A stretch of 50,933 nucleotides of DNA, from assembly GCA_037447655.1 (NCBI GenBank), contig JBBHKE010002376.1:1-50933 (forward strand), in the 5' to 3' direction. A model generated the notes under the pieces. It did not search any database, was not told the DNA's origin, and was given only the letters and a program-made list of their open reading frames with translations. The DNA comes from Zygnema cylindricum (Eukaryota > Streptophyta > Zygnematophyceae > Zygnematales > Zygnemataceae). Within the stretch, counting starts at the first letter, position 1. Each line of letters starts with the position of its first letter. This document shows positions 19,858-49,506 of this stretch, piece by piece. The position numbers were made by a program, and so were the translations under genes.

Positions 19858-20511
19858 CTACACACAGTTGACTATGTTTTCGAACTCATCGGGTAACTTC
19901 ATCAGTAAACAGTTAACCTTTTCTTTTTCATTAAAATCTTTTCCCGCACTCTCTAGCTCCATGAAGAGTGTAGCAAGCTCATTGCAAAAATCCAACATCC
20001 CTCCCCCTTTGTATACATACTCCTTAACTTTCTGATCAGCCAACTGTTGTTGCTGAATCATACCACTTCGGTACATCTCTATGAGAGCCATCCAAAGATC
20101 GGATGCCCTTTTTACCTGCAAATAAGGACATGCAAGTCCTTGAGTGGGATGGCGTAGGATGAAGTGCTTTGCCGCCATATTGTTGAAGTCCCACGTTTCA
20201 GTATCATTCCCCTCGTTCCTCGGAATAGGTGACATGAATGCCGAACCAGTTGCTATTGGTGTGGTCGCCTTCTTCTCTTTTCCTTTGTCCACCACTTCTC
20301 CTTCCTTTGTTTTCTCCATTGAAGGTGGATCCTCTTTCCTGGTGAATTTTCTTCCTCCAAACCCTAGAGGGATTCGAAGACTTGATGGACACCCTAACCG
20401 TCCACTCACTATCCCCCAAAACCTTTTTTCGCACAGAGCTCCTATCATCATACTTTCCCAGTATATGAAGCCAGTTCCATTAAAGATTCGTACCTTAGAG
20501 GGTGGGCCCAT
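19858..20511 (-). CDS. Copia E1 gag (UBN2-type), start codon inside the primer-binding site
   Basis: Copia-type Gag of about 217 codons: MGPPSKVRIFNG at the start, then GFIYWESMM, a Lys/Glu-rich insert and a helical core (SDLWMALIEMYR, LMKLPDEFENIV). The ATG at 20511 lies within the primer-binding site GGTTATGGGCCCACC. An upstream in-frame ATG at 20535 falls inside the LTR and is less likely. A TAG at 19858-19860 cuts it from the zinc knuckle and pol, which follow in the same frame. Confidence 0.85.
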   Translation of the reverse strand: MGPPSKVRIFNGTGFIYWESMMIGALCEKRFWGIVSGRLGCPSSLRIPLGFGGRKFTRKEDPPSMEKTKEGEVVDKGKEKKATTPIATGSAFMSPIPRNEGNDTETWDFNNMAAKHFILRHPTQGLACPYLQVKRASDLWMALIEMYRSGMIQQQQLADQKVKEYVYKGGGMLDFCNELATLFMELESAGKDFNEKEKVNCLLMKLPDEFENIVNCV

Positions 20512-20515
20512 AACC
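20501..20515 (-). promoter_or_regulatory. Primer-binding site of copia E1 (initiator tRNA-Met anticodon region)
   Basis: Immediately internal to the 5' LTR, GGTTATGGGCCCACC is complementary to the GGTGGGCCCATAACC segment around the anticodon of plant initiator tRNA-Met. This is the half-tRNA priming mode known for Drosophila copia, not the usual 3'-end priming. Confidence 0.85.
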
Positions 20516-21570
20516 TGAAACTCTGAGACCTCCATAAGTCCTCAGAGTGGACAACTTCTAAGAAGCCTCTAGGATAACCCTGACCCCTTTGTGTTTCAGC
20601 AAAGACAACTTCCACCCTGGCAAACAATAACTCTGACCAACTTCACCCCTGCGAAGGCAAGACTCCCCTGAGTCGATAGCAAAAAGAATCTCTGAATTTG
20701 CTCCCTTGAGCAGTAAGTTATGGAGGGTCAAAGTTGACCTTTTGTACAGAAGCTCTCTGGGAGAGAGGGTCCTATCTCCTAATTTTTCTAAGTCCTATCT
20801 CTCTCACAAACTCTATCTACTGATGTACGGAACTAATCAGATTAGAGTTCCGTACGCAAAAGTACAGCTGCCGGTGTACTTTATGTACAGACATTGTACG
20901 ACATGGCCTAAATGTCGACACATGTCATATCCAGATTCGGTGCCATAATCTCAAGAGATACCATGATCCAATGTAATTTCGCCACGTGTCATTCGATGTG
21001 GCGATGGCCACAAACCGCCAAAATCTTCTTCCGCGATCTCGGCGCTAATTCCGGCCGTCCGATTAAATTTGATTTTAATCGTAGCCGTAATAAATACATG
21101 CGCGGTATTCGTTTCACTAAAGATATAAATGCGCGGTATTGATTTCTTGTCCGTACCGTAATCCGTACTTATACATTACCGGATCTATGTATCCCGTAAA
21201 CAATTATAGTTAAATGATTTATCCTATGTATTTCTGTTTAAATAAATATCAAACCAAATACTACGTATCATTAGTTCTAGACTTAATGGCTAAGGCTACC
21301 GGCTATCTGCTGTCTGCTAGCCGGTAGGTACCAGGATCAAATCATGTGGTCGGCACATACCTTTTAGTAAATTTACCCCTAACTACTATAAATTTCCCAT
21401 AAACCTCTGGATAGCCTTGGTAGCCATGGCTCTAGCTCCCTCTCCAATTTCTCAGTGACTGCGACAAGTTTGTGAGTTGGAGAAAAAAGTTAGAGGTAGA
21501 CTGCCTCGGCTTTTTTCTATATTTCTATTTAGACCTAGAAAATACTAAAAATGGACCATTAATTTCTACA
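20516..21570 (-). repeat. 5' LTR of copia E1
   Basis: It begins (element sense) TGTAGAAATTAATGGTCC and ends CTCAGAGTTTCA. It is a 1,055-bp partner of 15109-16163. Confidence 0.92.
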
Positions 21571-22166: not shown

Positions 22167-24039
22167 TTCTCAATCTTGAATATATTCAGTCACTAATTAT
22201 TTTTTGTTTCCTTACTGCAGTTGCAGGGTATCAAAAGGCAAGGCGGTGGTGGGTAGGAAGGGTGGCAGTACTAAAAGGGATAAGGGAAACTACTCTCACC
22301 TTATCTTTTGCGGGTTTTGGAAAGAGAAGCGTTGCGGTAATGAAGGCGTTACCGAGAAGGGGTAGGAAAGAGTTACCATGGGTGGTGAAAGTTCACATGG
22401 ACTTAGTGGACGAATTCTACCGATTCCAAAAAGCGGGGATGAAATTGTCCACTGTCATTGTCGGAAAAATGGCAAATCATATCATTGCCGAAATGAAGAA
22501 AGAGGGATCGACGGATTTTATCGACGACACAGGTGAAGAGATCAAGCGAATAATCACTCGGCGTTGGATTCAACGCTTTTTCGAAAAGCATAGCATTGTC
22601 GCCCGGGCTAAAAAGAGCAAACTACAATTAAGTCCGGAGAAGGAGGAATACATCGAGAGATCCGTGGCGTATCACAAGGGCGTATTAAAGAGGGGATTTC
22701 TCTCGGGTAAGCTTCGTATTTTCTTATAATTTGTTGATTCTTGTCATATACAGTTGTTTTTTTGTTTCCCCTTTCATTATACTTATGTTTTGTTTCCTTT
22801 TGTTTTTTTCTTTATTTTGGTGGATAATAGGTCGTTGAAACGAGGATTTGGTGGAGAATATGGACGAGACCCATTAAATTGTAAATATAGACAACAAGAA
22901 AACTTTAGGCTTTCGCGGCGACGAGGTTGTAAAGTACGCCGACGTTGCAGGCGGTGGAGAGTCCATCACATTGATGGTACGACTCACGGGAAGAGCGAAC
23001 CCTAAAACGAGGCTCCGATGATTATTTTCACAAACCGCGCACGAAGTTACCCGATAAAGGGCCTTTCCAATGATGTACCGGGTAAGTTTCATTAAATTTT
23101 AATCATTGACTTTTTATTCATCTTCCTTCATTTCCTATATATTTTTACGTATTCCTCGCTACGAATATATGTTTTACCGTTTCATATTGGTTTTTAATGT
23201 TTCTTCACCCCTTTCCCTCTAACTCGTTATCTATCCCTCTCCCCCCCCTCTCGGCCTCCTCTCCCTCTCCCACTTTCTCTCCCCCTCATGTAACTCACCC
23301 CCTTCCATATCCTTGTTTTTTTCCGATTGTAGGAGTTTGCTACCGATCCGGCCCCAATGGATGGAATGATAAAACCGTATTCCCGCAATGGATAGAAGAG
23401 CCGAGATCTTATCAAGGAGACCGTGAAGGACGTGAGAAAATAATATTCCTCGACAATTGTGGAGGGCACAATAATTCCGAGGAGTTAAGCCGAGTATTAC
23501 TCGCCAAGAGGACAATTCTCCATTTCTTCCCTCCGTGCGCAACTCACCTTGTGCAACCCGCTGACTCCTTCGTCATTTCCAAGATTAAGGAGGTTTGGTC
23601 TCGAAAATGGGAGGATTGGAAGATGAACGGTATCGAGAAGTATGCGTGGTCCCATCCGAGTGGCAAGGGTTGGTCTAGGAAGCTACTCGGGTCCGGGAAG
23701 GCTTTCTTCCTCAAGTTGGCTCGCGATTCAATTCGCGAAGTCAACGCAATGAAAGACGACCGTGGGATGGGTTTCGCACGTAAAGCTATGATCTAGTGCG
23801 GATTGTCATTGAAGGACGAGAAATGGGAGGAGAAAATGCTCACCCAAGATTTACAAATCATCATCATGAAATGGCGATGCCATTTCGATGGCGATGAGGT
23901 GCCAATTCCTTCTACAGTGGCACGAGATTTTGTTCGAGGCATTCTAGATGCCGACACTAGGGAGGATGAAGTTCTTGAAGACGCTGACGTTGAATGGGAG
24001 AACGAAGATTTTGAGTCCTTTCAAAATGAAGTGGTCTAG

Positions 24040-30868: not shown

Positions 30869-30928
30869 ATTTCCCCCCCTCTTAGTCAACTGTGACTAAG
30901 ACTGTTGAAGAATTACCCCCCCCAATTC

Positions 30929-31300
30929 GCAGTTCCCGCATAACCAGAGAGCAAACGGTTTAGGACGAGGGTCCTAAGAGGAGGGGAGACAAGATTGATG
31001 CCAACACTGGTCGCATCGATCACAGACCAGTACAGAATTCTGGGAGGGAGATGAGAGGCATTGGGAGGAGCACAAAGGGGGGTCAGCAAAATAGGTAAGG
31101 TGGAAAGTAGGTTCGTCTTCTAATCCGCGGAGGTGACAACGAGCCACATTGATCTAATTTTCTTTGATCCTCCGCCCATCCTTCCCTTCAAGTGTCAAGA
31201 CCCTCTTATTGGAGACTTCCACTACCTTCAAAATCACCCTCCCCGCGGATATGTCCAGGGTGTCCTTTTTCTGTTGCATCCGATACACGAAATCCCAGGT
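30929..31300 (-). pseudogene. Gypsy pol C-terminus: integrase tail and PHD-type zinc finger
   Basis: The integrase C-terminal SH3-like part (DFVYRMQQKKDTLD, GRVILKVVEVSNKRVL) ends at TAG 31154-31156. The same frame continues into a Cys/His cluster spanning 31072-30929: CSSQC, eleven residues, CDRC, four residues, His, two residues, Cys, then WLCGNC. That is the C4HC3 spacing of a PHD finger, including the Trp two residues before the seventh Cys. The first pair has three residues between the cysteines rather than two. A second TAG (30974-30976) lies inside the finger. PHD fingers typically read histone H3 tails. Here it could direct integration or recognise chromatin; that is inference. Confidence 0.78.
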
Positions 31301-32290
31301 AGAAATCGTCGTTGCCGCGGGACAAAATTCCCGCTCCGGCGTTGCGAATACTAAAGTTGATCTCGATGCTGAGCTGCTTGTAAATTCCCCATTGCAAGAG
31401 GCATTTCGCGGTGAAATACCTTGGCTCTGTCGGCAATCAATTTTTCGACCGTTCCTTTGCTGTCCATCTCCGGAAGGACCACTGCTTCGGCCGAGGCAGC
31501 ACCGGGGAGGATGGGATGCCGTTCGAACAAAATGAAATATGGACTGTAGGAGTGGAGGGATGCTTACCGGCTGAATTGGTACCCCATGGCGATCCAAGGC
31601 ACCCTTCTATCCCACTCACCTAGATCCTCTTCCACGACATATTTACGCAGTGACCGCTTCACTGTTTGCACGCACCTTTCGGCCAAACCGTCGGCTTGTG
31701 GGTGGTCTCGGCTGGTCAACCAGTGATCGATGAGACACAATTCCAACAAGTTGGAGAATTCTCCCGCAAATTCGGAGCCCTGGTCGGTCAGAACTTCGGC
31801 TGGGGCCCCAAATTGGGAAAGCACTCTTTGCAAGAATGCGTCCGCAATAGACTTGGACTCCTTCCTGGGTAAGACCACCAATTCGATCCACTTAAAAAAA
31901 TGCTCTATCATTACCAACACAAAGCGGTTCCCTCGTCTGCTAGTGGGGAGAGGACCCAGCAGATCCAGAGACCACCAATAAAACACCCCCTTGATGGGAA
32001 GGGAATGAAGCTAAGCACCTCCCTTTTTGTCGAAAGCTGCTTTGACTCGGTCACAGGAGGAACACGTCTGCACAATCCGGTTGACTTCGGTCCGCAACCC
32101 GTGCCACCTGTACGATCCTGCGAACAAGGAGGTAGTTCGTTTCTGCTCAAAATGGCCACACTGCTGGTGAAGGTTAAAAATAAGAGTCTCCGGTCGGCCG
32201 GGGGAGGAACCACTTTCCTCGTCCCATCTGCCCACTTCCGGATTAAGATGCCCCTTTCCCACTCGTATGGCGCCATTCGTGTTTGCACCC
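31300..32290 (-). pseudogene. Gypsy integrase (zinc-binding and catalytic core)
   Basis: The H2C2 zinc motif is visible in the 32454-32011 frame: His-X4-His in NLHQQCGH, then CSSC after EVNRIVQT. The core follows in the 31986-31564 frame: Asp in WWSLDLLGPLP, Asp in LTDQGSEFAGEF, Glu in ADGLAERCVQTVKRSL. A stop codon after YQFSR (at 31564) sits where the next residues (ASLHSYSPY) continue the family pattern in the same frame. Another frame change follows near 31300. It would insert the cDNA into the host chromosome if intact. Confidence 0.87.
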
Positions 32291-32297
32291 GAGATAA

Positions 32298-32806
32298 CTA
32301 AACTCCTGACAAATGCGGAAGAGGGAAACCTTGTTGGACAGATTGGAGTGCATCGGGATCGTTCCAAATATCTTTCCGTCCGCCCCCTATTGGCGCCTGC
32401 CCCTCCACGTCTACAGAGAAAGTAGACATTTCCCCCCCAAATTGAGCAAGCCAAATAAAGGCAGATGAAGCTCGAATGAGTCCCAAACTGATTTCAAGAT
32501 CCTCATCATGGCGGGTCCCGGTGGAATCTCTAGTGGAAGGGTCAGGATTTCTGCTAAGTCCGTCGGCAATCCCATGAATCTCTCCGGCCCGGTGGATTAT
32601 GTTGAAGTCATATTCCTGCAGTATTAACACCCACCTGGCGAGCTTGCGTGTGAGCTTACTGTTCTCCATAATCCACTTAAGGGGCTGGTGATCCGTGATC
32701 AGAGTGAAATGGACTCCGTATAGATATGGTCTAAAATGTTGGATGGCCCATACCGCCGCCAATAATTCCCCGTGATAGCTACTGTAATTCCCCTCCGCTC
32801 GGTTAT
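32298..32806 (-). pseudogene. Gypsy RNase H, 3' part (left of the copia E2 insertion)
   Basis: It resumes at the insertion point with NNRAEGNYSSYHGELLA (catalytic Glu), then FTLITDHQPLKW (Asp), ILQEYDFNIIHRAGE and GIADGLSRNPD. The remainder lies at 40922-41030. The linker runs open to a stop at 32298 and overlaps the zinc-domain frame of integrase. Confidence 0.88.
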
Positions 32807-33163
32807 TGAAACTCTGAGACCTCCATTGGCCCTCAGAGTATGCAGATCCAAAAGAAGCTAATCTAGATAGTGCCGACTCCAAGTTGATATAAACCCAAAT
32901 GACTGACCCCTTGACAGTCAAAACCCCAATATAGATTCACCCCTGTGAAATAACACTTTTTGTGTGCTCAGTTCCACCACAGAATGCAAAGTTAGAGTAT
33001 GAGATTTGGACATATTCACCCACTTTGACTTTCCCTAATAAATACAGCCACCCTGGCAAACAAAAAACTCTGACCGATTACACCCCTGTGTAGCCTGGAC
33101 TCCCTTGAGTCCGCAGCAAAAAGAATCACTGAAAATGGTCAAGTAAAAATTGATGGTTATGGC
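32807..33163 (-). repeat. E2 3' LTR, outer piece
   Basis: It begins TGAAACTCTGAGACC beside the TSD GTTAT and runs to the E3 insertion point. It continues at 36930. Confidence 0.9.
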
Positions 33164-34590
33164 TGTTGTTTTTGGAAGATTCAGTTTCGCATATGCGTGC
33201 GTGTATTTGCTTGCTTACGTAATTACCGGAGTTAATGTGGAGGTTTGAACGGATTTGCGGATTGGGGGTTTTGCACGAGTAAATTAATTAACTAATTGAG
33301 TGGAGCGAAATGCGCTGAACAATGGACGGCGGATCGCGAAGCGATCCGATTTGAAATATTCGAAGTGTTTGAAAAAGTACGGCCGCCATACGAAACATAA
33401 TGCGACAGACCGCATTTATTAAATGTGACGCCGCCGGTACGGAGCGTCGTATTTGACACGTGAGATGTACGGCAAAGTACGTAGTAACGGTACGGACTAA
33501 TTTGGATAGCTTGACGAGGTTTCGACAAGTGGATTTTTCTTATGACCACGCGGCGCGACACCAAGGGTGCCGATTGAGAGTGACGGACGGCGGATATAGT
33601 CCGCCGAGATTTTCTATGTAGTGGTGACACGAAATCGCGTCAATCACACGATATTTATTTTTGGACGTTCCGGATTGCTTGCCAAGTGATTCGTGGTACA
33701 CGTGGAAGGCGGATGGCGTCCGCCGATATTTCCAAGGGACCACATTGTTTTTTTTGACGCATTATCTAGTGGACCGTACATATGCCATGTCGGTTCACTA
33801 CGTGGACTTATCGACAAATGACTAAGCAAGTTGTCGCTTATGACGCGTATTTTGCGGACGCGTCCGTGTAAATATTTGATACAACATTGTTTTGTCTTAT
33901 GTGTATTATTAATTAGTATTGATTATGACATTTGTTATTTAAGTGATCAATTAGGGTTTTCGACAGTTTAATTTGTGTGTCTTTATTTGTCGTTTATGCA
34001 GACAAGTGTACGCTTACGATTGCTAGGCTTTCAGGTGTACGCTTAAGATTAATTTATTCTTAGTGATGGTATATTATGGTTAAATAGGACTAAATGACAG
34101 TTATGTAATGTATGTTAGTTATTTTGACACTTAGTGATTTGTTAACAGCTCACAAGTGTATATATAGATTTGAGCTTCATTAGGAAAATAATCAATGCTG
34201 GTTAGAAAAGTAGGGACCGAAGATGTAGACTTTTAGGGTTGCCGATTAGGTCATGCATTTGAGTAATATGTTTATTGATATACTTTTGTTTATCTAATGT
34301 TTATGTGAGATTGGACTCTTTTTGTTATTATTTATTTATGTTATTTTATGTTTGTTTGATATGCATTATTTATGCATTTGTCCTAGGGTTTGTTTATGTC
34401 GATTATTCCATCAAACCTTAGATGTTGTCATAGGGTTTATTTATGTTGATTATTCCATGAAACCCTAAATGTTGTTGTATGTTAAATGGAGGATGCATTT
34501 CAAATGATTGTTCATTGGCCTAGCTTCGCTTAGCTTCTTGCATGATAGTTTGGGTTGCTTCTGCGGTCTATTTTAGACCAAAGAACAACA
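33164..34590 (+). repeat. 5' LTR of E3
   Basis: Starts TGTTGTTTTTGGAAG and ends AAAGAACAACA. A TATA-like GTATATATAG lies at 34158-34167. The 112-aa minus-strand ORF in it recurs identically in the other LTR and is not a gene. Confidence 0.95.
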
Positions 34591-35497
34591 GGTTATGGGC
34601 CCACGCCCCATCTATCATATGTTAGGTTAAGTCGATGTAGGTTTGTGTCACATGCATTGTAGCGGGTTAATTTTGTTCTTGCTGGTTGTATTGCAGTAAT
34701 GGTGTCTGTGTACCCATGAGATCGGCCTTATCATAGTGTTGGTATGTGCCGAGTTTAATCTTGCATCGCCCCAAGGGTTAACTTAGTGACAGTGCCGAAA
34801 TGTCTACCCTCAATGAAAATGATTAATTATGAAAAATGATATTTTATTTTTGGAAAATACATATTCGTTTGATGGAGAAATGTGGAAGGTGGAATTTCGA
34901 CGTTTGGGGGAGAGAGATCCGAAAGGTGGAGTTTTGACATGTGGTGGAGAGATCCAAATTTTGTGGATCGATGATTGTTGAAAATTGGATTTGTAATGTA
35001 GATTTTGAGTTGTTGGGAATTTTTGGGAAATGTGATATTATTAGAATTTTTGGGAAAATACTATTTGTTAAGTGTATTTTTAATGGGAAATTTTGGGATC
35101 AGATTATTAAATGGAAAAAGAAAAGAAAAATTTTGAAATCTAGATTTAATATGGTTGAGGTATAAATTTTGAGTTGGGATATATTATTAGTGTGATCGTT
35201 TGGTTTTAATTCTTAGTTGATTTGTGACAGAATTGTGAGAAGTAGATTCAGATTTAGATATTGTTGAGAAAAGATAAAATTTTGTTGTAATCGGAAAATG
35301 AAAATATATATTATGTATTATGAAACTTGGAAGGCATATGAAGGCAGCGGAAGCGATGGTGGCGGAGGCAATTTGGCGGATTCAGATGGAGGAGACAGCA
35401 GAAGGTGACAGTAGTGACAGCTGATGATGTAAATCTATGGAGTGTGACAGATGATGACGTGGCGTCATGGATTTACGAAACTAAATCTTCGGGGGAG
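34591..35497 (+). other. E3 interior: primer-binding site, no coding domain
   Basis: GGTTATGGGCCCAC at 34591-34604 matches the initiator tRNA-Met anticodon region. The ATG inside it opens a frame of only 11 codons. The rest is AT-rich, with a GA-rich patch at 35330-35450 before the polypurine tract. Confidence 0.88.
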
Positions 35498-36924
35498 TGT
35501 TGTTTTTGGAAGATTCAGTTTCGCATATGCGTGCGTGTATTTGCTTGCTTACGTATTTACCGGAGTTAATGTGGAGGTTTGAACGGATTTGCGGATTGGG
35601 GGTTTTGCACGAGTAAATTAATTAACTAATTGAGTGGAGCGAAATGCGCTGAACAATGGACGGCGGATCGCGAAGCGATCCGATTTGAAATATTCGAAGT
35701 GTTTGAAAAAGTACGGCCGCCATACGAAACATAATGCGACAGACCGCATTTATTAAATGTGACGCCGCCGGTACGGAGCGTCGTATTTGACACGTGAGAT
35801 GTACGGCAAAGTACGTAGTAACGGTACGGACTAATTTGGATAGCTTGACGAGGTTTCGACAAGTGGATTTTTCTTATGACCACGCGGCGCGACACCAAGG
35901 GTGCCGATTGAGAGTGACGGACGGCGGATATAGTCCGCCGAGATTTTCTATGTAGTGGTGACACGAAATCGCGTCAATCACACGATATTTATTTTTGGAC
36001 GTTCCGGATTGCTTGCCAAGTGATTCGTGGTACACGTGGAAGGCGGATGGCGTCCGCCGATATTTCCAAGGGACCACATTGTTTTTTATGACGCATTATC
36101 TAGTGGACCGTACATATGCGATGTCGGTTCACTACGTGGACTTATCGACAAATGACTAAGCAAGTTGTCGCTTATGACGCGTATTTTGCGGACGCGTCCG
36201 TGTAAATATTTGATACAACATTGTTTTGTCTTATGTGTATTATTAATTAGTATTGATTATGACATTTGTTATTTAAGTGATCAATTAGGGTTTTCGACAG
36301 TTTAATTTGTGTGTCTTTATTTGTCGTTTATGCAGACAAGTGTACGCTTACGATTGCTAGGCTTTCAGGTGTACGCTTAAGATTAATTTATTCTTAGTGA
36401 TGGTATATTATGGTTAAATAGGACTAAATGACAGTTATGTAATGTATGTTAGTTATTTTGACACTTAGTGATTTGTTAACAGCTCACAAGTGTATATATA
36501 GATTTGAGCTTCATTAGGAAAATAATCAATGCTGGTTAGAAAAGTAGGGACCGAAGATGTAGACTTTTAGGGTTGCCGATTAGGTCATGCATTTGAGTAA
36601 TATGTTTATTGATATACTTTTGTTTATCTAATGTTTATGTGAGATTGGACTCTTTTTGTTATTATTTATTTATGTTATTTTATGTTTGTTTGATATGCAT
36701 TATTTATGCATTTGTCCTAGGGTTTGTTTATGTCGATTATTCCATCAAACCTTAGATGTTGTCATAGGGTTTATTTATGTTGATTATTCCATGAAACCCT
36801 AAATGTTGTTGTATGTTAAATGGAGGATGCATTTCAAATGATTGTTCATTGGCCTAGCTTCGCTTAGCTTCTTGCATGATAGTTTGGGTTGCTTCTGCGG
36901 TCTATTTTAGACCAAAGAACAACA
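35498..36924 (+). repeat. 3' LTR of E3
   Basis: 1,427 bp, near-identical to 33164-34590. The TATA-like motif recurs at 36492-36500. Confidence 0.95.
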
Positions 36925-36929
36925 ATGGC

Positions 36930-37769
36930 TGCCCAAAGTTTGCCATTTATACAGGGTGCTCTCTGGGAGAGGCAGCTGCCTACCCAAAATTTATCTAAGT
37001 CCTATTCCCTCTCTAAAACTCTATCTACTGAAGTACGGCACCAATCAAATTACTGTATCGTACATAAAAGTACAGGTGCCGGTGTACTTTATGTACGGCC
37101 ATTGTACGACATGGCCAAAATGTCGACACGTGTCATATCCGGATTTGTTCCCGTAATCTCCGGAGTTGCCGCAATCCAATGTAGTGTTACCACGTGTCAC
37201 TTAATGCGGCGGTGATCGCAAACCGCCAAAATCGTACGCCGCGATCTCGGCATCCTTCGCGGCCGTCAGATCAAATTTGGATTTCAATCGTGGCCGTCAT
37301 AAATACCTGCGCGGTATTCTTTCCAGCGTCAAACAAACCGCGCGGTATTTATTTCGTAATCGTACCGTACGTCGTACTTTCCACAACTGTTTCTATGCAG
37401 TATATATATAGTTCTAGTTAAATGAATTATTTTTATTGTAACTATTTAAATAAATATCATACCCCATGATATCTAATACAATTTAGACTATCTGGATAAG
37501 ACTACCGGTTATTGTGGTTGTGACGAATGGCAGGTACCAGGATCAAATCCTGGACCTGGCAAAACTATCTTTTAGAGAAAACCCCCTATAAAACAACTGT
37601 CTGTCTCCCTCTAGACAGCACAGGCAGCCATGGCTAACTCCTCCTCCAGTCTTCAGTGACTGCGACAAGTGTGGGGACTTGAGGAGGAGTTAGAGGCAGG
37701 CTGTCAATATCTACTATTTTGCTTTTTATTTTGCAATCTCTAGACCTAGAAAATACTTGAATTCCAACA
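36930..37769 (-). repeat. E2 3' LTR, inner piece
   Basis: It continues the LTR after E3 and ends at ATTCCAACA, bordering the polypurine tract. It carries the block GGTACCAGGATCAAATCC (37533-37550), a B-box-like sequence within a short CCAGG/CCTGG stem. Confidence 0.9.
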
Positions 37770-37782
37770 CTCCCCTTATTTT

Positions 37783-39717
37783 CTAGTCTATTTTTCTTTC
37801 AACTCCCACAAACAAGTAAACAAACATCCCCTCCCCTTTTTTTTTCCTTTTCTTTTTCCTTTTTCCTTTTCCTTTCATAAAACTTAAGTATTTAACACAG
37901 TGCATTAAATGAACTGAAACGATAATTATATCACACATTTTATTTAACATCCCATTTTTCTTAAATTCGAGCAAAGATTTTATCCACTTCATCACTCTTT
38001 CATCCACACACAAACCGATTTCCCTCTTGCGATCTAAACAGCCAGCCCGATTTCCAATCTGCAACATACACCTAGATGCTAACCCTTTTACAGGCACATC
38101 TTCGTCACACCAAGTAGTGATGTCAAATCCATCCACCCCCAAATATTCCCTTAAACCACTAGTCCCCACTAAGTTCCTCATAAGATCTATATCTTTCGTA
38201 CTCATATTTTTATCTATGATAATTACCCCATTTTCTGAACTTCCCTCACTCTCTCCCATGGAATTCTTTCCACTATTACTTTCTAATTTAGTTCCCAATA
38301 AATATTTCTTCTCCCCTAAACCTTTAATCAAATATTTCTCTTCTCCCCTATCCTTTCAAACCTCTTCGAGTTTCACTTCTCCCCTTTCCTCGGAATCCGT
38401 TGAAGTCTCACTTTCCAACCAGTTTTCTGGTTCCCTATTATCTATAAAGTTATCCTGAATAATTTTATCTTTCCCGTTTTCACTTATGGATCCTAGAACT
38501 GACTTTCTCATTTCTAAGTCATACACTCTACACTCCTCAACATTCTCAAGTACCTCCTCTCTCTTTACTTCCCTTATACCTCCAAAAGCACACTGTTGCT
38601 TTCGTGCAATTACTGTGTTCTTTTCTTTCTTCCCCATACTACTAATCCGGAGAAGCTCTAAAATATCTTCATCCTCTTTCTCCTCTTCCCCTACTTCCTC
38701 CTCATCAACATTCCAACTTCTAAGTTTTTCCAAACAAGGGCATTCCTCCATATAATGACCCGGTTCCCTACAAAAGAAGCAAGCCCCCCTTTTCAAAGCT
38801 CCCCTTTCTTTTCCTCTCCCTCTCTTTCCACCAAAGTTCCGATAAGGTTTACCTTTGTCTTTCTTTCTCTCATCACGCTTTCGCTCGTCACCACCGTTCC
38901 TCTCATCACGTTTCCGCCAATCACCACCAGTTGAAAATGCATTGACCTTGTCCTTTCCCCTACGAAGCTCCAAAGTGCTTTCCCTTACAAAAATTATCCC
39001 CATGGTAAAGCTCCAAGTCCATGAGGAGCCATCTATTGCCTGCATACGATAAATAATGTTTTCGTACTCACTTGGGAGTTTCATAAGTAGTGTATTAAAC
39101 TTACCCTCCTCAGATTCTACACATCCCGCACTAGCTAGCTCAACATATAACGCAGCAATATCATTGCAAAACTCTATCATGCTACCGCCTTTATAAACAT
39201 AGGCATCTATTTCCTATTTTACTAATTGCTGCCTCTGAATAGTCTCACTCTTATAAATCTGAATTAGTACTTCCCATATCTCTGAAGACTTGGTTAGACT
39301 TAAAAGAGTGATAGCTATCGACTTAGACACATATCTAAGTATGAGATGTTTTGCTATAGTGTTTTTGTATTACCATATTTTTCTGTCATTTTCTTCAGTT
39401 TTAATCCCTACATGTGGTACCATAGCTGAGAGCCTAGCTCCCCTCACCATAGGTGTCCCTTTTTCCATCTCCCCTATTTCCCCATCCACGGAAAGATTCT
39501 TCCCTTCACCTTCCGTTGCATCTGAGCTCCGAATGATATTCTGGGCAGCCTCAGATGAATCTCCATAGTAAGCTCCTCCAAAGCCAGGTGGCGGACATCT
39601 CACTTGTCCCGAAACAATTCCCTATAAGTGTTTCTCAAAAAGCAATCCCGCCATCGTAAACTCCTTATAGGTGAAGTCTGTTCCATCGAACATAGGCACC
39701 CTAGATGGTGGGCCCAT
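37783..39717 (-). pseudogene. E2 gag fused to a residual RT/RNase H segment
   Basis: The ATG at 39717 lies in the primer-binding site (start MGPPSRVPMFDG). The frame has several stops but stays in register: 39603-39370, 39180-38356 and 38331-37783 are all in one frame. The middle part has the Gag helix (LLMKLPSEYENII) and a CCHC knuckle CFFCREPGHYMEEC. A TGA at 38356-38358 precedes a segment matching the end of copia RT (KGLGEKKYLLG) and a shrunken RNase H (DGFDITTWCDEDVPVKG). The protein ends in a Lys-rich tail. Protease and integrase were lost without breaking the frame. Confidence 0.82.
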
Positions 39718-39721
39718 AACC
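39706..39721 (-). promoter_or_regulatory. Primer-binding site of E2
   Basis: 16 bases complementary to the anticodon region of initiator tRNA-Met (GGTTATGGGCCCACCA), directly after the 5' LTR end. It contains the gag ATG. Confidence 0.87.
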
Positions 39722-40916
39722 TGAAACTCTGAGACCTCCATTGGCCCTCAGAGTATGCAGATCCAAAAGAAGCTAATCTAGATAGTGCCGACTCCAAGTT
39801 GATATAAACCCAAATGACTGACCCCTTGACAGTCAAAACCCCAATATAGATTCACCCCTGTGAAATAACACTTTCTGTGTGCTCAGTTCCACCACAGAAT
39901 GCAAAGTTAGAATATGAGATTTGGACACATTCACCCACTTTGACTTTCCGTTATAAATACAGCCACCCTGGCAGACAAAAAACTCTGACCGACTACACCC
40001 CTGTGTAGCCTAGACTCCCCTGAGTCCGCAGCAAAAAGAATCACTGAAAATGGTCAAGTAAATTGATAGTTATGGCTGGCCAAAGTTTGCCATTTATACA
40101 GGGTGCTCTCTGGGAGAGGCAGCTGCCTACCCAAAATTTATCTAAGTCCTATTCCCTCTCTAAAACTCTATCTACTCAAGTACGTCACCAATCAAATTAC
40201 TGTATCGTACATAAAAGTACAGGTGCCGGTGTACTTTATGTACGGCCATTGTACGACATGGCCAAAATGTCGACACGTGTCATATCCGGATTTGTTCCCG
40301 TAATCTCCGGAGTTGCCGCAATCCAATGTAGTGTTACCACGTGTCACTTAATGTGGCGGTGATCGCAAACCGCCAAAATCGTACGCCGCGATCTCGGCAT
40401 CCTTCGCGGCCGTCCGATCAAATTTGGATTTCAATCGTGGCCGTCATAAATACCTGCGCGGTATTCTTTCCGGCGTCAAACAAACCGCGCGATATTTATT
40501 TCGTAATCGTACCGCACGTCGTACTTTCCACAACTGTTTCTATGCATTATGCATATAGTTCTAGTTAAATGAATTATTCTTATTGTAACTATTTAAATGA
40601 ATATCATACCCCATGATATCTAATACAATTTAGACTATCTGGATAAGACTACCGGTTATTGTGGTTGTGACGAATGGCAGGTACCAGGATCAAATCTTAG
40701 ACCTGGCAAAACTATCTTTTAGAGAAAACCCCCTATAAAACAACTGCCTGTCTCCCTCTAGACATCACAGGCAGCCATGGCTAACTCCTCCTCCAGTCTT
40801 CAGTGATTGCGACAAGTGTGAGGACTTGAGGAGGAGTTAGAGGCAGGCTGTCAATATCTACTATTTTGCTTTTTATTTTGCAATCTCTAGACCTAGAAAA
40901 TACTTCAATTCCAACA
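39722..40916 (-). repeat. 5' LTR of E2
   Basis: 1,195 bp, TG..CA ends in element sense (TGTTGGAATTGAAG ... GAGTTTCA). The tRNA-like block recurs here at about 40680-40700. Confidence 0.92.
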
Positions 40917-40921
40917 GTTAT

Positions 40922-42400
40922 TACTCCTACTGGCGTAAGCTACCAAATATTCGGCACTAGCATCATCCTGTTGGGCTAAAACAGCTCCCAATCCAAACCG
41001 GCTCCAATCAGTGTAAAAGAGAAAGGGTCTTTAGTGATCAGGCATTCGGAGCACTGGGTGTTGCTTCAGGGAATCCTTGAGGAACTGGAAGGCAATCTGT
41101 TGCTCCTCCGTCCACTGCCACTCCTGGTCTTTCCACAGCAACTGGTTCAGAGGCTGAGTGTGGCTGCTAAATTCAGGGATGAATCTCCGATAAAAGTTAG
41201 CCATGCCTAAAAATGTGCGGAGTGCAGAGACGTCCTGAGGAGGGGGTAGGGCATCAAGGGCCGCAACTTTGACCATATGGGGACCCACTGTCCCGGGTGT
41301 AACTTCGTGTCCCAGGTAAATAATTTTCTGCACCCCAAAAATTCCCTTACCCGGGTGACATTTCAAGCCCGCTGCTTGGAGAGCTCGGAGTACAATCTGT
41401 ATGTGCTCCAGGTGTTCCTCGAAGGTCTTCGAGAAGATAATCACATCGTCTATATAGCACCGTGCACAGTCAATTCCCCGGAGTGCCTCGTCCATGGCAC
41501 GTTGGAATTTGGCTGGCGCATTTTTCAGCCCGAATGGCATGTAGAGTCATTCATACAACCTGGACCCTGCCCAAAAAGCTGTCTTTTCCCAGTGCTTTGG
41601 CTCCATCGCGATCTGGTGGAACCCATTCTTCATGTCTAGTGTGGAGTAAATGGTGGCCCCGGCCAGCGAGTCAAAAATCTCTTCCGGGGTAGGCATTGGG
41701 TATCGGTCAGGTATAGTGGCCGTGTTAAGCATCCGGTAATCTCCACACATCCGAAAGTCTACCGTTTTCCCAGATGAGTCCTTCTTGGGTGAGAGAACGG
41801 TAGAAGACGCAAATCCATGGAGTTCGGTACTTTCTTGAACCAATCCTGCTTCCACCAGAGTTTGTACCCTTGCCGTGATGAACTCCTTTTCCTTGAAATT
41901 GAGAGGGTACAGCTTCTGCCAAACAGTAGCCGTCTCGTCTATTAAATCAATTCGAAAAGGGGTTCATTTGTAGATGCCTACGTCGGTATCAGACCAAGAG
42001 AACACTTGTTTGTTCTTCTCCAACAGGTCGGAAAGCTGGGCCTTTTGCTGAGGGTTCAACTGCTCCCCTAAGGTCCAATCCATCTTTCCGAGTTCCACCG
42101 CTGCCCAGGCCTCTGGGGGTCTACCCCAGCGGAAGATATCGAATTCCATCCCTACCTGCGGGTCTCCCTCAGCTCCTCCCGTTAAAATGCTGCTGCTAAC
42201 AACTTCCGCTAAGTTGTCTCTCTCCGAGCCTCCGCTCCCCCCCACTGAGGAATCCCTTAATTTCGGTAAAATACTGGGACAGGAAAATTTTGATGATAAA
42301 AATTGTTGTCTTGCCTCCCTCCCCCCCTCAAGCTGCAAGTGGGCCTGCACCGCTAACAACTTTGGAGCTTGAAGGTAATGATCCCTCGATTGCGGAGACT
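40922..42400 (-). pseudogene. Gypsy reverse transcriptase and start of RNase H
   Basis: The frame is shared with the methyltransferase. It contains EAGLVQES, CGDYRMLNTATIPDRYPMP, the DMKNGFHQI block, LYMPFGLKNAPAKFQ and the catalytic YIDD (41448-41460), followed by FLGMANFYRRFIPEFS and the RNase H start toward the insertion point. Nonsense codons: TGA at 41964-41966, and TGA at 41547-41549 just before LYMPFGL, where the family normally has Trp. The DNA after 41031 (FYTDW.. region) runs to the GTTAT site of E2. Confidence 0.9.
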
Positions 42401-42409
42401 GAAGGCTAG

Positions 42410-43370
42410 AGAAGGCCAGAGAATGTTTTATCATCCATGTTATTGCATTTAGATCCATGCTTTGTCCGAGTAGGCTGCACCTCTAGAGGTCTGATATACC
42501 TGGTGCCGCTGTACTGGCTGGTTGGAATCCCATGGCTTGTTCTCGTTCTTCCACCGTTGGCGTTATCCAAACTCCACGTTTGCTGTCAAATATCATTCTT
42601 GCCGCTCCCTTTCGATACGCATGGCTATTGGGGAAGGAAACCAATGTTGGCAGTGCCCGCTGAGGTGCTCCTGATTGGTTGCACTGGAAGAACGGGGGAC
42701 GATCAGCCTTAGTTACGGGAGTAGCCATCCGCCCTATCCCTAAAATTTGTTGCAGGGTAATCTGGGGATCTGTTTTGTGGTTCTGTAAGAGCTTGTTCAT
42801 GAGTGACAGAGGTATCAAATTCGTCCAGTACGCCTGAACTCTGTGAGCCCTAGATCCCAGTTGAGCCGCATCGAAAACAAGTGGAGCTCCTAGAATCTGT
42901 TTGACTTTATTCCAGCTATTTGCGACTTGTTTTCTCTTATCATCTCCCGGGTGAACATTCTCCAAAACGTACCCTACTGGTTGGTCTAGGGATTGCTGCA
43001 GCCAGGAAAGTAATTTGATCATCTGGAAGAAGGTTCGACTCCTGCTATCCTGATGTCCCTCGCCTTTCCCGGCTAGAGAGTATCCTTGACATGGCCATCC
43101 TGCAATCACCAAATCAACGTGCTCCAGCATAGCGAGATGTGGCTTAAGGATATTGTCTATATTTTGCGAGACACTTCGGTGCGATCTGCAGATGGCGGAT
43201 ACCGGAAGTTGTTGGGGATACAATTGGTGGAGTTGTTGGAGTCGGTATTCACTGACAGCCCGAGCATCCGGTGAAATTTCCACGGCCACATATGACTCCA
43301 CTTTATGCCCAGCCTTCAAGACAGCTTCGAGGTCCGAGCTAATTCTAAAAAAAATAAGGATAATATCCGG
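42410..43370 (-). pseudogene. C5-cytosine DNA methyltransferase domain inside the gypsy polyprotein
   Basis: The main open frame is 43319-42483. Counting from its Met at 43319: motif II-like VAVEISPDA (11-19); motif IV GWPCQGYS with catalytic Cys at 77; motif VI LENV with Glu at 120; motif VIII SRAHRVQAYWTN (156-167); EEREQAMGF (257-265). Motif I (ILSLF) lies upstream at about 43355-43370 in another frame, broken at a homopolymer of eight T (43347-43354). A TAG at 42483-42485 is followed in the same frame by LLGQSMDLNAITWMI, which fits motif X. All core motifs are therefore present. HRVQAYWTNL resembles the DNMT3/DRM class, while PCQ rather than PCN resembles other classes. It would transfer methyl from SAM to cytosine, perhaps on the element's own DNA. 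Confidence 0.9.
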
Positions 43371-43572
43371 AGTCCAAAATCCGGGATAGATAATGACACC
43401 ACTTGTCGATTGAATTTTTGATTTTCGGGCGGAACTTCGAAGGTTCCAACCGCGGTTCTTTTTCCTTCACAAAAACAGCTGTCAAGGATTTGTCCACTTC
43501 CCGCCGAAGTTTTGTTATTTGTAATAATCTGTTCTGGTATCTTTTTTCCCACCGCTTGGAAATAGGGAATTG

Positions 43573-44160
43573 CTATATTATGTCTGCGATATCGGTGGCG
43601 CTGGCGAGCAGTTCCGTGGGTGTGTGAGTAGCATAGACGGGATAACATCCTGCGACGGGAGCATTATCTTTCCCCCTATTCCATAGATCCAGAGGAACCA
43701 CCACCTTGACTCCTTCGGGATCCTCAGGATCCCGAACAGTAAACTGCTCCTTCCACACACTTAATCCCATATTCACCCTTGTCCAGGTGGCCATTCCCAA
43801 TAAAATCTCAAACTGCTTACCTTCCACCACCAGGAAGGGAAGCTGAATTCGGACCTTCTCACCTGCGTCGTCGGCAAACTCTATTAACATAGCTTTGATT
43901 ATTCCGTGTACCGGTTGGCTCCCATTGCTAACAACACTTAGATAGATGTCACTGGGGAAGATTTCCGGTCGGAGTTCTTCAGGCATTTGCTGCAAAGCCG
44001 ATGTGGTGATTAGATTTGGGAGTGCTCCTGTATCGACCACTACATCTTGATACCCGCCGTATCCGTTGAGTTTGAAATTCCCCGTCCGGTTGAGAATTAG
44101 AGCCACAGATAACGTTTTGTAGTCCCTATCCATCATAGGGGTCTTTGGGTCTGCTGACAA
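43573..44160 (-). CDS. Gypsy aspartic protease (retropepsin)
   Basis: Open for about 195 codons. DVVVDTGALPNLIT holds the catalytic DTG at residues 43-45, followed by flap-like and ILLGMATW segments, the last matching the conserved (I/L)LG(M) strand of retropepsins. It lies in a different frame from the preceding Gag linker (44126-45016), overlapping it by 35 bases, so a programmed frameshift or a mutation separates them. A stop at 43573 precedes a Lys-rich linker leading to the methyltransferase. Confidence 0.82.
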   Translation of the reverse strand: MSADPKTPMMDRDYKTLSVALILNRTGNFKLNGYGGYQDVVVDTGALPNLITTSALQQMPEELRPEIFPSDIYLSVVSNGSQPVHGIIKAMLIEFADDAGEKVRIQLPFLVVEGKQFEILLGMATWTRVNMGLSVWKEQFTVRDPEDPEGVKVVVPLDLWNRGKDNAPVAGCYPVYATHTPTELLASATDIADII

Positions 44161-46242
44161 AAAAACGGATCTGGGCCTGATCGGCCCGGTGTTTCTCCCC
44201 TCCTGAATGGATTTCCTCTCCGAGGGCCTGGATGAAAACTTCCTCCGGGAAGTTATGGGAAGAGTCCAGTGTTTTCATGTGAGTGAGAGTGTAGGGCATT
44301 AGATGCCTTACTAACATCATCGTTGGTTTGGAGGAAGGAGGTTGAATTTTTGGCGACGAACTGGAGGAATCTGTTGGTTCCACCGGTTGATTCTTCTTCC
44401 CCCCCCCTGCTTCCTCAATTTCTTGGTCGGATTCTGGCGCTGGCAGTGTTTCTGGCGTGTTATCCTCCGGGCGTTCCGCCAAATATTTTTCGAACCAGTC
44501 TTGGGTGTCACGCGTTTCTTCCTCCTTTGCTCGTTCCTCCATGTTCCTTGTTTTGGTTGTCCTGTAATTTTCGAATCCCGGAGGTAGTTTCGTTGCGGCT
44601 GGTGGAGGTGGGTTTGTAGATTTGATTCCGAGACCTATGTCGTCGTTCAGGATGACGGCCCTGGGGGTGAAGGACAGAGGTCCAGTAGCGTTCCTGTTGT
44701 GGTCTCGTGGAGCGAGCTTTTGCCTGTCCCTTCGTTGCGCCAAGGTTGAGTTGCGGAGCTGCCTGCGATTGTCCCCCACACCGACATTCCAGGCTCCCGA
44801 AAGGAGGGTTTGTGCGTGATGTGCTTTCGCAGGTTCCATGTCCCATCCCATCACCTCGTCATCGTCTTCGCCCGCTGCGGTTTCCTGTTCAAGCTCCGCG
44901 AGCTTCTGTAGTAATTCGTGCTTTCTCCGGTGGAGTTTCTGGGCGATCGTCAGAGCAGGAGTCCTGGAGGGCGATCCTAATCCCAGCGCTGCCAATTCTG
45001 CAGCCATGGCTGCCATTTGCTGGCTCTGCTGTTGGATGATAACCTCTGGGGTTAATCGGGCTTGACCTGTTGGCTATCGTTCTGGGTTTTCCGGGGTGCG
45101 GCGTCCCCAAGGGTAAAGAAGCTGCAGCGGGAGAGGATTCACGGCCGTTTCACCTTCTCCGGTGAACAGTGAATATTGCATCATCTCTTTAGGAACTCCA
45201 TTCTTTCCGAAGAACTGCCCTTCCTTGTGACCCATGAAACCACAAGCCTCACACTTCGAGCCCTCGGTGGTATGTTTCCCCCGCAATTCATTTGAGATTT
45301 GCGCGTCATCAAATTTTGGAAGTTTTATTTGTCGCAATTGGGCTTGCGACATCTTTGTAGTCTCAGCTTGTGGGGTCGGCCGGTAATTCTCTTTGTTCAC
45401 CGGTGTTTTATCGTCTGACCCTCCTCCTTGCTTCCTTTCTTGCTGCCTCTTTGTCCTTTCAGCTCTCTCCTTCTCCCATTCCTTCTGCTTAAGAGCTAAT
45501 TCCGGTTTGAGCTTCCGGGGGCATCGCTTCCATCCATGACGTGTTTGTTGACAATTTAAACAGTTATAGAGGAAGACACGATCATCGGCCCCCATGGCAG
45601 GTTCGGATCCGCTATCCACCACCTGTTTCCCCTTAAGCTTCCGCAAGGCTAAGAGTTCGGCCGACTCTTCATGTTTGAGAGGCATTTCTCCGGCAAATCT
45701 TGCAAAGTTCCCTCGGGTTTTCCCGATTACCGCTTTTTCCTGGGCCTCGCGGTTGACAAAGTGATCATAAAGCTTCATGGCGGCCAGAGAGATTTCTTTG
45801 GCGGTTGGATTCACGTCCTGGATGGCCTGTCCAGCAATCCAATTATCGAGGGCTGCCTGCCCCGTCGGTCCGAACGAATTTCGGACAGCGATGAAATATT
45901 TGGTTGCCATGGCCGGAAGATCAATGGTTGAGAGTTTGGTCTTTTGACAGAGGCTGGACAATCTGTTAAAAAGAGTCTGTGGTGTTTCACATTTTGGCAA
46001 CGGAATTCCGTGAATTCCTTGATAGCAGATTCATTCCTCTTGGTGTAAAGGAGTCTCCAAGCATTCAAAAGAGTGGTACAGGGGGTTGGGTTTGCAACCA
46101 TCCGAGTGGCAGCCTTGGCCTCCTGGATGGCCTGAAGCTGAGCGTCGTAGGCTCGTCCTTGTGCCTGCAGTTTCATGTCCTCTGTGAAGAGGGCGGTGAT
46201 AGGAGCGGCTGCAGCGGCAGCCAAGTCTGCTTGCGCCTGCAA
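44126..46242 (-). pseudogene. Gypsy gag C-terminal region with zinc knuckles and coiled-coil linker
   Basis: Three open pieces: 46242-45811, 46000-45074 and 45016-44126. The first holds Gag helices (QAIQEAKAATRMVANP). The second holds a CCHC knuckle (CLNCQQTRHGWKRC) and a second, defective one (CEACGFMGH without the last Cys). The third has a Gln/Leu coiled coil (KLHRRKHELLQKLAELEQE) and a Glu/Pro-rich linker. The second and third are in one frame with a TAG at 45074; a frame change near 46000 separates the first. Confidence 0.78.
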
Positions 46243-47602
46243 GACTGCCTCATCAAGGATAGGGTCTGATATTTTGATGTTGGAGCCATCAGAAGAGGTT
46301 GTCGCTCCTTATAGTCTGCCAAAGATCCACCAGCAAGATAGTTCACCATCATGGGGAAAAGCGTGGTCTCGAAGTCATCCGGAATGGCTCCGCCCCTGTA
46401 TTTGTTGATTTCAGATTGGGTGAAAGACTTCCACAGCAATTCGAAATCAGAGAAAGCGATTCTCGAGCTATCTCTTGTAAAGATCCTTGCGTCCCCCATT
46501 TCGTTTTCCTCCTCTGCAAGGTTGGTGAACTGAGAAGAGGATGGTCCGGTTGGGCTGACAAACTGAACCGGTGAAATTACCCCGGGATCCGCGTCGGGTG
46601 GCTCGGAGCCTCCTCCTTTTCCGGTAGAAAGAGCTGCCTGACGAGAGATGGCACTCCCCCCCACTGAGGAAGCTCCGGTTACTGGTGGGATAGTGAGATG
46701 ACCTGTATCTCCTTGGAGTTGGCCCTTCGGATACGAGGAGCTTATCTCCTTGGGAAAAGCGGCCCGAAGTCCGACTCCTCTATACCCAGGAAAGGCCCTT
46801 TCCTCCCGGCGAACTGTTTCCACCGAGGGAATGTGGAGAATAGGTTTAATCACCGGTGGTCCTTGAGGGATTGGTGGAGAAGGGGAGAGAGATGAATGAG
46901 GACTAAGAGGGAAAGGGGTCTGTCTCCGTGTACGCCTTCTGGAGGTTTTTGGTGGAGGAGTTCCTTCGCTGGAATCGGGAGAACGTCGGTGGTGAGGAGA
47001 GTAGGCAGGAACGTCGTACTTGTAGGGTAAGACACGTGGTCCTGGTGACCCACGGATTGCAGCGGCCGGAGAAACAAAAGGCGAAGGAGATGAGGCTTGA
47101 GGTGGAGATGGAGGAGGAGTGGAAAACCCAAGGGAGATGTGTTGTCTCTGGTCGGGTTGTAATAATACCACGGCCTCCTTAGTTGAAGACCCAGCCACTG
47201 AGACAACAGTAGGACGCTCAGCGGAGGCGGCTGCAACGTTATCCGGTAAATCTGCACCCATCCCCTGTTTGTTAGGTCCTGTTGTTTCCCACCCTTCCCG
47301 CTGAAGATGAGGCTCCGGTCTAAGTTCCGAAGAAATCCCGGGAGCTGGCATCTCCGTAGGGGTTGTCTGCGCTGTAGTTTGTCTCTCAGCCGAGGGACCT
47401 GTTTCTCTAGGAGGAGCTACCTGTCCCCTATGATCCCTCCTGATATTTGTCTAGCCTCCCTTATGAGGGTCAATTCCTGTTCAAGGGCCCTCTTCCTCTC
47501 TTCTTCAAGAGCTTCCCAATCGATGGTGAAGGGTCCAGCCCCCGCCGTAGCCTGACTCTGAGATAGCAAGATATCAACAAGTTTTTGTGTACTGCTCACC
47601 AC
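46173..47602 (-). pseudogene. Gypsy gag N-terminal region (Pro/Ser-rich)
   Basis: 47602-47417 encodes a Glu-rich coiled coil (EALEEERKRALEQELTLI). After a frame change, 47351-46290 encodes a long Pro/Ser/Arg-rich disordered segment, then a structured Gag-like part (FSDFELLWKSFTQSEINKY, FPMMVNYLAGGSLADYKE). Another frame change near 46290 leads to the next piece. It is unusually long for a gypsy Gag. The upstream end is lost at the junction with a copia fragment. Confidence 0.7.
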
Positions 47603-48436
47603 AGATAGAAATAATAATAAGATTAACTCAAAAGGAGACCATTGGAAACATTTTTGAAAAATTCCGAATGGACAAGGCTAATAGTTGTACCACTCCAATG
47701 GAACTAAAGAAGGGAAGTGAGGGGAGTGTGGAAGAGGGAGTTATAATTTTGGATGATGAGTTAGGCACTAAAGAGAAAAGATTTATGCAGACAATTCCTT
47801 GGCATCCTAATATACTTCATGTATTGTACCCATCCGAACATAGCCGCAGTGTAGGAGTACTAAGAAGAAATTATGAATGCTCCCACTAGAAAGGATTGGG
47901 AGGCAGCTAAGAGAGTCCTTAGATATCTCAGAGGGACTAGAGATCTATGGTTCCATTTGGGTGGGAACAATAGTAACATCACCAGTTGGAGTGATGCCAG
48001 CTATGGGGATGCTCCTATGTGGATATGCACGTCTAGATATGTATTGTATGTGGGTGATTGCGCTTCCTGCTGGAGGAGTAAGCAATAAAAGGTCATTGCT
48101 CAGTCCACCATTGAGGCTGAGAACATGGCTTCTTGCTCTACTGTAAAAGAATTAATATGGGTGAAGTTTTTACTTGGTGTGCTTGGTCATCTTAACAGTG
48201 ATGTCCAAAAGGTGTTTTGTGATAATCAAGCAGCAATTGACATTTCTGCCAATCCTAAACATCACTTTAAAGCCAAACACATGGACATTGGACTTAGCTT
48301 CGTTAGGCAAAAAGTAGAAAACAAGATAATCAGTTTGTAATGTAAACCAGATAGTGAAATGGTAGCAGTTATGATGACTAAACCTGTGCCTTCCCCTAAA
48401 CTAATTTTCTACGAGAGAAGTGTAGTCTTAAATTAA
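47587..48436 (+). pseudogene. Copia E5 pol remnant (RT C-terminus and RNase H)
   Basis: Three pieces parallel the end of E1 pol: RLTQKETIGN and MDKANSCTTPMELKKGSEGS (47587-47889), DWEAAKRVLRYLRGTRDLW with SWSDASYGD (47873-48088), and FCDNQAAIDISANPKHH (48125-48340). A frame change at about 47880 and several stops disable it. The first 13-16 bases overlap the gypsy gag ORF at the junction. Confidence 0.88.
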
Positions 48437-49506
48437 AGAGTGACTAGAAAATAAAGGGAGTGTAGAAGTTAAAGGTTCTTTTAGTATTATCTGGGTCTAA
48501 ATTAATTGAGGAAAAGAAGCCGAGGCAGCGTGCCTCTAACTCCTCTCTTCAGCTCCCACACTTGTAGCAGTCACTGATGGTTGAAGAAGGAGATAGAGCC
48601 ATGGCTGCTTTTGCTATCCACAGAGAGAAAACCAGATGCTTTAGTAGATTTACTAAAAGGGAACTTGACAGACCGAATATTTGATCTTGGTACATACCGT
48701 TTGTCAAGCTATTTGGTAGCGGTTAGCTTTATCCTAATAGTCTAGGATTGGAGCTAAGACATTAATGGTTCAACAGATATTTAAACTGTGACGCGTAAAC
48801 AAATAAACTTAACTGAAACTATAGACGTTGCGCATGGATACAATTTTGTAAAGTACAGACTACACTACGAATACGTAACGGATACGGCGCATTTTGTTTC
48901 GATAGCGAAACAAATACTGCGCAAAGACTTATGACAGCTACGATTAAAACCCAGTTTAATCAGTCGGTCGCAAAGGATACCGAGATCATAGAATAGGATT
49001 TTTGCGATTTTCGATCACCGCCACATCGATTCACACGTGGCACAACCACATTGTATTACGACATCTCCGCGGATTATAAGAACGAATCCAAATATGACAT
49101 GTGTCGACTCGTTGGTTATATCCTACAATGGCCGTACAGAAAGTACACCATCACCTGTACCTTTTTGTACAACACAGTATTTTGATTGGTGCCGTACTTT
49201 AGGAGTTAGAGTTTTAGAGAGCGATAGGACTTACAAAAATTTGGTAGATAAGACCCTCTCTCATAGATTGCTTCAATACAAAAGGAAACTTTGAGCCTCC
49301 ATAACTTACTACTAAGGGGAGCAAATTCAGAGATTCTTTTTGCTATATACTCAAGGGAGTCTTGCCTTCATAGGGGTGACGGTGGTTAGAGTTTTTGTCT
49401 GCCAGTGTGGCAATTATTCTTGCTGAAACACAAAGGGGTTAGGGTTATCCTAAAGTCTTAGTGTGAGCTGCCTATTCAGAAGACCTATGGAGGTCTTAGA
49501 GTTGCA
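47603..49506 (+). mobile_element. 3' part of a copia element (E5): RT end, RNase H and 3' LTR
   Basis: Truncated at its 5' side against the gypsy gag. The interior runs 47603-48436, the polypurine tract 48444-48460 and the LTR 48461-49506 (1,046 bp, ends TGTAGAAG ... AGAGTTGCA). No TSD can be assigned because the 5' part is missing. Confidence 0.87.
48461..49506 (+). repeat. 3' LTR of copia E5
   Basis: It aligns along its length with the LTRs of E1 and the solo LTR (shared GTACACC...CTGTACC, TTGTACGG-type and CCTCCATAACTTACT blocks) but is clearly more diverged. Confidence 0.85.

Follow-up and report, generated by a model that had tools for sequence, protein, structure and literature searches.

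A decayed Ty3/gypsy retrotransposon of Zygnema cylindricum with a DNMT3-like methyltransferase domain between protease and reverse transcriptase

The analysis of a 50,933-nucleotide stretch of DNA from the alga Zygnema cylindricum (contig JBBHKE010002376.1; the whole stretch is hereinafter "the window") revealed a decayed copy of a Ty3/gypsy retrotransposon (47606-30899, on the minus strand, as are all the parts of this element given below), split into two parts by a nested copia-type element and embedding a C5 cytosine methyltransferase (MTase) domain. Its domains follow the order gag, zinc knuckle, protease, C5-MTase, linker, reverse transcriptase (RT), RNase H, integrase, and PHD remnant, in which protease, RT, RNase H, and DDE integrase succeed one another in the order by which Ty3/gypsy elements are recognized. 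In the reading that we favor and regard, as a whole, as moderately probable, this dead element belongs to a Ty3/gypsy family of the streptophyte type, whose Pol polyprotein carries a DNMT3-like de novo MTase flanked by protease and RT as well as a PHD finger following the integrase, and whose intact copies would be self-methylating and PHD-guided.

The search of MTase families proposed in the original prediction assigned the domain (42435-43369) to PF00145 (C5 DNA methylase), which matches the open reading frame (ORF) 43466-42483 at 1e-10. The core C5-MTase motifs (numbered I to X) could all be located as predicted, and motifs I, IV, VI, VIII, IX, and X stand in the canonical, unrearranged order: motif I (first part LSLFF within 43369-43349, remainder from 43343), motif IV (AGWPCQGYS, 43103-43077), motif VI (YVLENV, 42971-42954), motif VIII (RAHRVQAYWTNL, 42851-42816), the EEREQAMGF block (42551-42525), and motif X (LLGQSMDLNAITW, 42473-42435). 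Motif I, however, is spread over two frames by a frame break, and the window copy is therefore not intact. According to both the sequence profile and the predicted fold, compared with solved structures, the closest C5-MTase is DNMT3 and not the tRNA enzyme DNMT2 (an initial structure model built on 8 rows was poor, with a pLDDT of 47, and was left out of the fold comparison); on the basis of profile and model, the window MTase is thus DNMT3-like. No match to ADD or PWWP was obtained with Pfam in the MTase ORF 43466-42486, and DRM and CMT are absent among the 50 rows listed by VIA, which excludes nothing.

The MTase, the linker (41967-42434), and the RT (41034-41963) do share a common frame, as had been claimed, but this frame is interrupted by stops at 42485-42483 (preceding motif X), 41966-41964, and 41549-41547; a further in-frame stop (41033-41031) lies at the start of RNase H. 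The RT, previously placed at 42458-41031, had to be redrawn: 42482-41967 comprises the final MTase segment (with motif X) and the linker, the RT proper starts at about 41963, and the element continues past 41031. PF00078 matches this RT at 7.7e-7 on 41963-41550 (slightly under the cut-off) and at 7.5e-16 on 41546-41034, the YIDD motif being within 41459-41433. On the other side of the MTase, the aspartic protease (43579-44274, in the ORF 44274-43573) exhibits DTGA (44034-44005) and ILLG (43806-43789); its Pfam score is under the cut-off (Asp_protease_2, 0.0065), and its best BLASTP match among the proteases of the relatives is 30% over 148 amino acids (3e-8). Three different frames are occupied in this region, one by the protease, one by the beginning of motif I, and one by the remaining MTase.

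The comparison with related sequences indicates that the MTase is part of the gypsy element, and not a host gene fallen into one copy; both this claim and the location between protease and RT had been put forward in the original prediction and are borne out. Indeed, the relative P0082 (685 amino acids, encoded on a separate contig from JGI that is 4,594 bases long) carries MTase, linker, and RT within a single open frame and is collinear with the window, the identity being 49% in the MTase, 31% in the linker taken with the motif X stretch (matching residues 336-500 of this protein at 1e-21), 72% in the RT, and 90% in the final 42 amino acids. P0022 is likewise collinear with the window for the end of the MTase and the RT. 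The MTase motif was retrieved by pattern in 110 of the 124 listed relatives, and in the same ORF of these 110 a protease site lies upstream in 19 and a zinc knuckle in 4, whereas an RT and an integrase lie downstream in 2 each; these counts refer to sequences many of which are fragmentary and to patterns that overlook some. In the Closterium copies P0107, P0108, P0111, and P0112, motif IV reads ECQ or SCQ in place of PCQ, with the Cys retained.

The phylogenetic tree, also proposed earlier, embeds 52 rows, namely the window, the retroelement locus L001 described below, 41 proteins from the list of 124 (23 selected manually and 18 others, each spanning at least 240 reference positions and not being a near-copy at 78%), eight viral rows, and a single animal DNMT3A; Calypogeia P0100, Closterium P0115, and the plant host DNMT3, CMT, and DRM were left out. 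An IMG/VR scan with the query A3 (29 C5-MTase loci) served only to supply the viral outgroup rows; no relatives were retrieved from IMG/VR when the query was the window ORF, A2, or P0002. The window groups with P0082, P0001, and P0022 (98/100 in the careful tree; SH-aLRT 92, not starred, in the quick one), and all 43 family rows form one clade (95/89, careful tree) apart from the viral MTases and DNMT3A, the eight viral-contig MTases falling outside the family with 100/99. The cellular comparison consists of a single animal DNMT3A, whose long branch in both trees makes the depth of the family clade unsure.

A genome scan with A3 returned seven loci. Six of them, from Streptomyces or Saccharothrix, match over a short length; the remaining one, L001, is a retroelement, since protease, MTase, RT, RNase H, integrase, and PHD finger are all present. 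It lies on a contig binned as a cyanobacterium and is probably a stray eukaryotic contig in a mixed bin. Its first ORF, open at the start, contains two knuckle-like motifs, one of them canonical (by direct reading; none by Pfam), a protease (7.8e-4, under the cut-off), and the MTase (6.8e-12, Pfam); RT, RNase H, integrase, and PHD finger follow in the same frame after one UAG, and its integrase shares 63% identity over 149 amino acids with that of the window. This UAG, apparently new between such ORFs, stands between the gag-protease-MTase and the RT frames within the sequence UAG CAA UCA (L001:3489-3497). CARYYA is a readthrough pattern, and the CAATCA found here fits it, this UAG being the only one of the 267 forward-strand stop triplets of L001 with such a context; it is a single case and a candidate readthrough signal. 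The window protease ORF likewise ends with UAG CAA, but UUC comes next.

In the window, the integrase (H2C2 zinc finger plus rve core, 31567-32493; PF17921 2.5e-10, PF00665 2e-10) is followed by a PHD-finger remnant broken by a stop (30929-31072), with PF00628 at 3.6e-4 on the piece 31153-30977, under the cut-off. The score of this piece against the L001 tail (66) was attained by none of 1000 shuffles, and that of the second piece by itself by 82 of 1000, which is not significant. The L001 finger is clear (PF00628, 4.3e-10), and the closest fingers in the PDB include those of CHD4, PHF12, UHRF1, KDM5, and ATXR5, several of which read unmodified H3K4. A PHD finger is therefore found behind the integrase in both of the two elements readable there (weak in the window, clear in L001), and no chromodomain was found by Pfam in the pieces 31606-31157 and 31153-30977, where a PHD match occurs instead. 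Such a histone-reader module alongside a DNMT3-type writer is apparently new.

Organism names accompany 13 of 102 matches: Calypogeia fissa (3), Marchantia polymorpha (2), Sphagnum jensenii (1), Closterium NIES-53/54 (6), and "Obscuribacterales" (1); the name Klebsormidium does not occur among these 13. At least one ORF of each of Calypogeia, Marchantia, Sphagnum, and Closterium harbors a protease site upstream of the MTase motif (P0100, P0071, P0119, and P0108/P0111/P0112, respectively), the MTase of the Sphagnum protein being only partly retained. The contigs bearing the liverwort and moss matches measure 0.87 to 25 Mb, which points to elements resident in these genomes. In the careful tree, five bryophyte rows form a clade with two unnamed rows (100/98), and five Closterium rows form another one (100/100). 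The novelty suggested in the original prediction holds only in part, in that a gypsy Pol with Dnmt3, the KnitGypsy-Dnmt3 of Klebsormidium nitens, was published in 2018 (de Mendoza; PMC5890265; statements on this and the other papers refer to the passages considered), but the PHD finger and the relatives in Closterium, Marchantia, Calypogeia, and Sphagnum, land plants included and contrary to a published statement, are apparently new. The literature searched, which covered few subscription journals and included passages of PMC12344493, PMC6453930, PMC6338049, PMC9516144, and PMC10952607 (the DNMT survey of PMC12344493 extends more widely to retrotransposons and may include bryophyte copies), contained no report of bryophyte copies, other retroelement DNMT3s, or PHD-bearing gypsy elements; PMC3286476, retrieved with "PHD finger" and "gypsy", was rejected as a precedent because in its available text it concerns a host gene near an insertion. 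We may tentatively speculate, although this appears rather doubtful, on a single ancient gypsy lineage common to streptophyte algae and bryophytes. Combining a DNMT3-type writer with a PHD finger that reads H3, this lineage would be an element-borne equivalent of the reader-plus-writer DNMT3 of the host, would serve to choose and mark its own insertion sites, and might have been kept from algae to land plants.

As regards the possible role of the domain, we infer that in intact copies the MTase would be synthesized as part of Gag-Pol, released from it by the protease of the element, and carried with the reverse-transcription complex, where it would methylate either the double-stranded cDNA of the element itself or the newly inserted copy (the methylation of its own cDNA being also a published speculation; PMC5890265). 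The PHD finger borne by the integrase would, in turn, tether the complex to histone H3 tails, biasing the integration sites, and a new copy would begin its life pre-marked, resembling the silent host repeats nearby, with the element supplying both reader and writer. Several observations weigh against this scenario. The window copy is unable to make the MTase protein; its PHD remnant is weak alone and depends on its position and on L001; no pair of terminal repeats linking both ends of the gypsy element was found, its ends being undefined; in P0087 and P0088 the integrase zinc finger comes directly after the MTase with no RT in between, and the place of the MTase is therefore not fixed among elements. 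Moreover, the MTase domain of K. nitens gave no methylation in yeast, a result deemed inconclusive by the authors (PMC5890265).

This last result would also fit the idea that the domain works without methylating DNA, through nucleic-acid binding, a structural role, or an RNA substrate such as the primer tRNA, RNA methylation having been raised by the same authors for another class of elements, SymbioLINE (PMC5890265). The catalytic Cys, EN, and AHR are, however, almost invariant across a 46-row alignment of the relatives, and the proximity to DNMT3 rather than to the tRNA enzyme DNMT2 speaks in the same direction, so that we consider such a role rather improbable. A different possibility is that the MTase acts in trans, methylating the host DNA broadly or jamming host silencing as a counter-defence; it has indeed been discussed that uncontrolled methylation by retrotransposons may drive the methylome of Symbiodinium, but the methylome of K. 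nitens is land-plant-like despite its Gypsy-Dnmt3 copies (PMC5890265), and a Pol-embedded MTase would presumably be low-level and packaged. An action in trans appears unlikely to us.

Concerning the origin of the domain, the match of the bacterial HaeIII and HhaI to the MTase profile (1e-9 and 1.5e-8), the bacterial name borne by P0048, and the cyanobacterial bin of L001 might suggest a viral or bacterial source instead of a host DNMT3. Nevertheless, DNMT3 matches far more strongly in both sequence and fold, the bin of L001 is probably mixed, and the viral-contig MTases fall outside the family, although the sole cellular DNMT3 of that tree is on a long branch; a source of this kind is, in our opinion, quite unlikely. 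The chance landing of a host DNMT3 gene or pseudogene in one gypsy copy, to which the decay of the window copy and its three frames could be ascribed, is extremely improbable, being already contradicted by the collinear P0082 and P0022, by the clade they share with the window, by the protease-MTase ORFs of the relatives, and by L001. Parasites that bring the host's own silencing mark, as a gypsy family with its own MTase and PHD finger would do, are seldom encountered in the arms race between transposons and their hosts; the presence of a PHD reader beside a DNMT3 writer leads to a concrete prediction of how elements pick and mark their sites, and the function would be testable in Marchantia, a genetically tractable liverwort harboring relatives.

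The remaining features complete the map of the element. Its 5' part, defined by ORFs and Pfam domains, spans from gag to the start of RNase H (40917-47606) and adjoins upstream a copia RT fragment at 47607, within a copia similarity extending over 47607-49503. The putative gag ORFs (45077-47450, i.e., 47450-46176 plus 46030-45077) were assigned by position and order, with no Pfam family reaching its cut-off in them, and the CCHC zinc knuckle CLNCQQTRHGWKRC (45521-45562) was identified by direct reading of the CX2CX4HX4C pattern, Pfam not reporting it. The 3' part (30899-32806) harbors the remaining RNase H (32301-32805; PF17917, 3.2e-22), the integrase, and the PHD remnant. RNase H is cut at 40916 and resumes at 32806, and the 5-bp ATAAC target duplication flanking the nested, separate copia-type element (32807-40916, minus strand) implies that the two gypsy parts were formerly continuous; the long terminal repeat (LTR) pieces of the nested element are 96.7% and 97.6% identical, and its copia-type gag match is under its cut-off. 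Inside one of its LTRs lies a second LTR element of 3.76 kb (33164-36924), with 1427-nt LTRs 99.8% identical, a 0.9-kb internal part without long coding frames, and ATGGC on both flanks, apparently a recent, non-autonomous insertion. Elsewhere in the window are a copia-type element (15110-21570, minus strand; LTRs 94.7% identical, long gag/pol ORFs) and a piece of a DDE_1 transposase (23110-23793; PF03184, 3.4e-11), and the tRNA and Rfam scans of the window gave no match.

Among the known systems, the closest is KnitGypsy-Dnmt3, which shares with the window element a Ty3/gypsy Pol with a Dnmt3-class MTase and unrearranged motifs; the main text of that paper, figures aside, does not contain "protease", "PHD", or "readthrough", and DIRS-like repeats are described for the K. 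nitens element (PMC5890265), whereas none were found in the window element, whose ends are undefined. The streptophyte elements are termed LTR Copia in PMC12344493 and Gypsy in PMC5890265. SymbioDIRS-Dnmt3, whose DNMT3s methylate CG in yeast, resembles P0082 in having a DNMT3-class MTase and an RT in one ORF, but it is described as an independent capture and has a tyrosine recombinase (PMC5890265), in contrast to the DDE integrase (H2C2 plus rve) of the window element. The host DNMT3s (animal DNMT3A/B and plant DNMT3; PMC6453930) are similar to the window MTase in predicted fold and motif order. Unlike them, the window MTase is inside a retroelement polyprotein with ADD and PWWP unmatched, and its canonical motif order differs from the rearranged one of DRM. 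Chromoviruses are Ty3/gypsy elements with a chromodomain behind the integrase; the L001 element and, as a weak remnant, the window element likewise carry a chromatin-reading module in that position, in the form of a PHD finger instead of a chromodomain.
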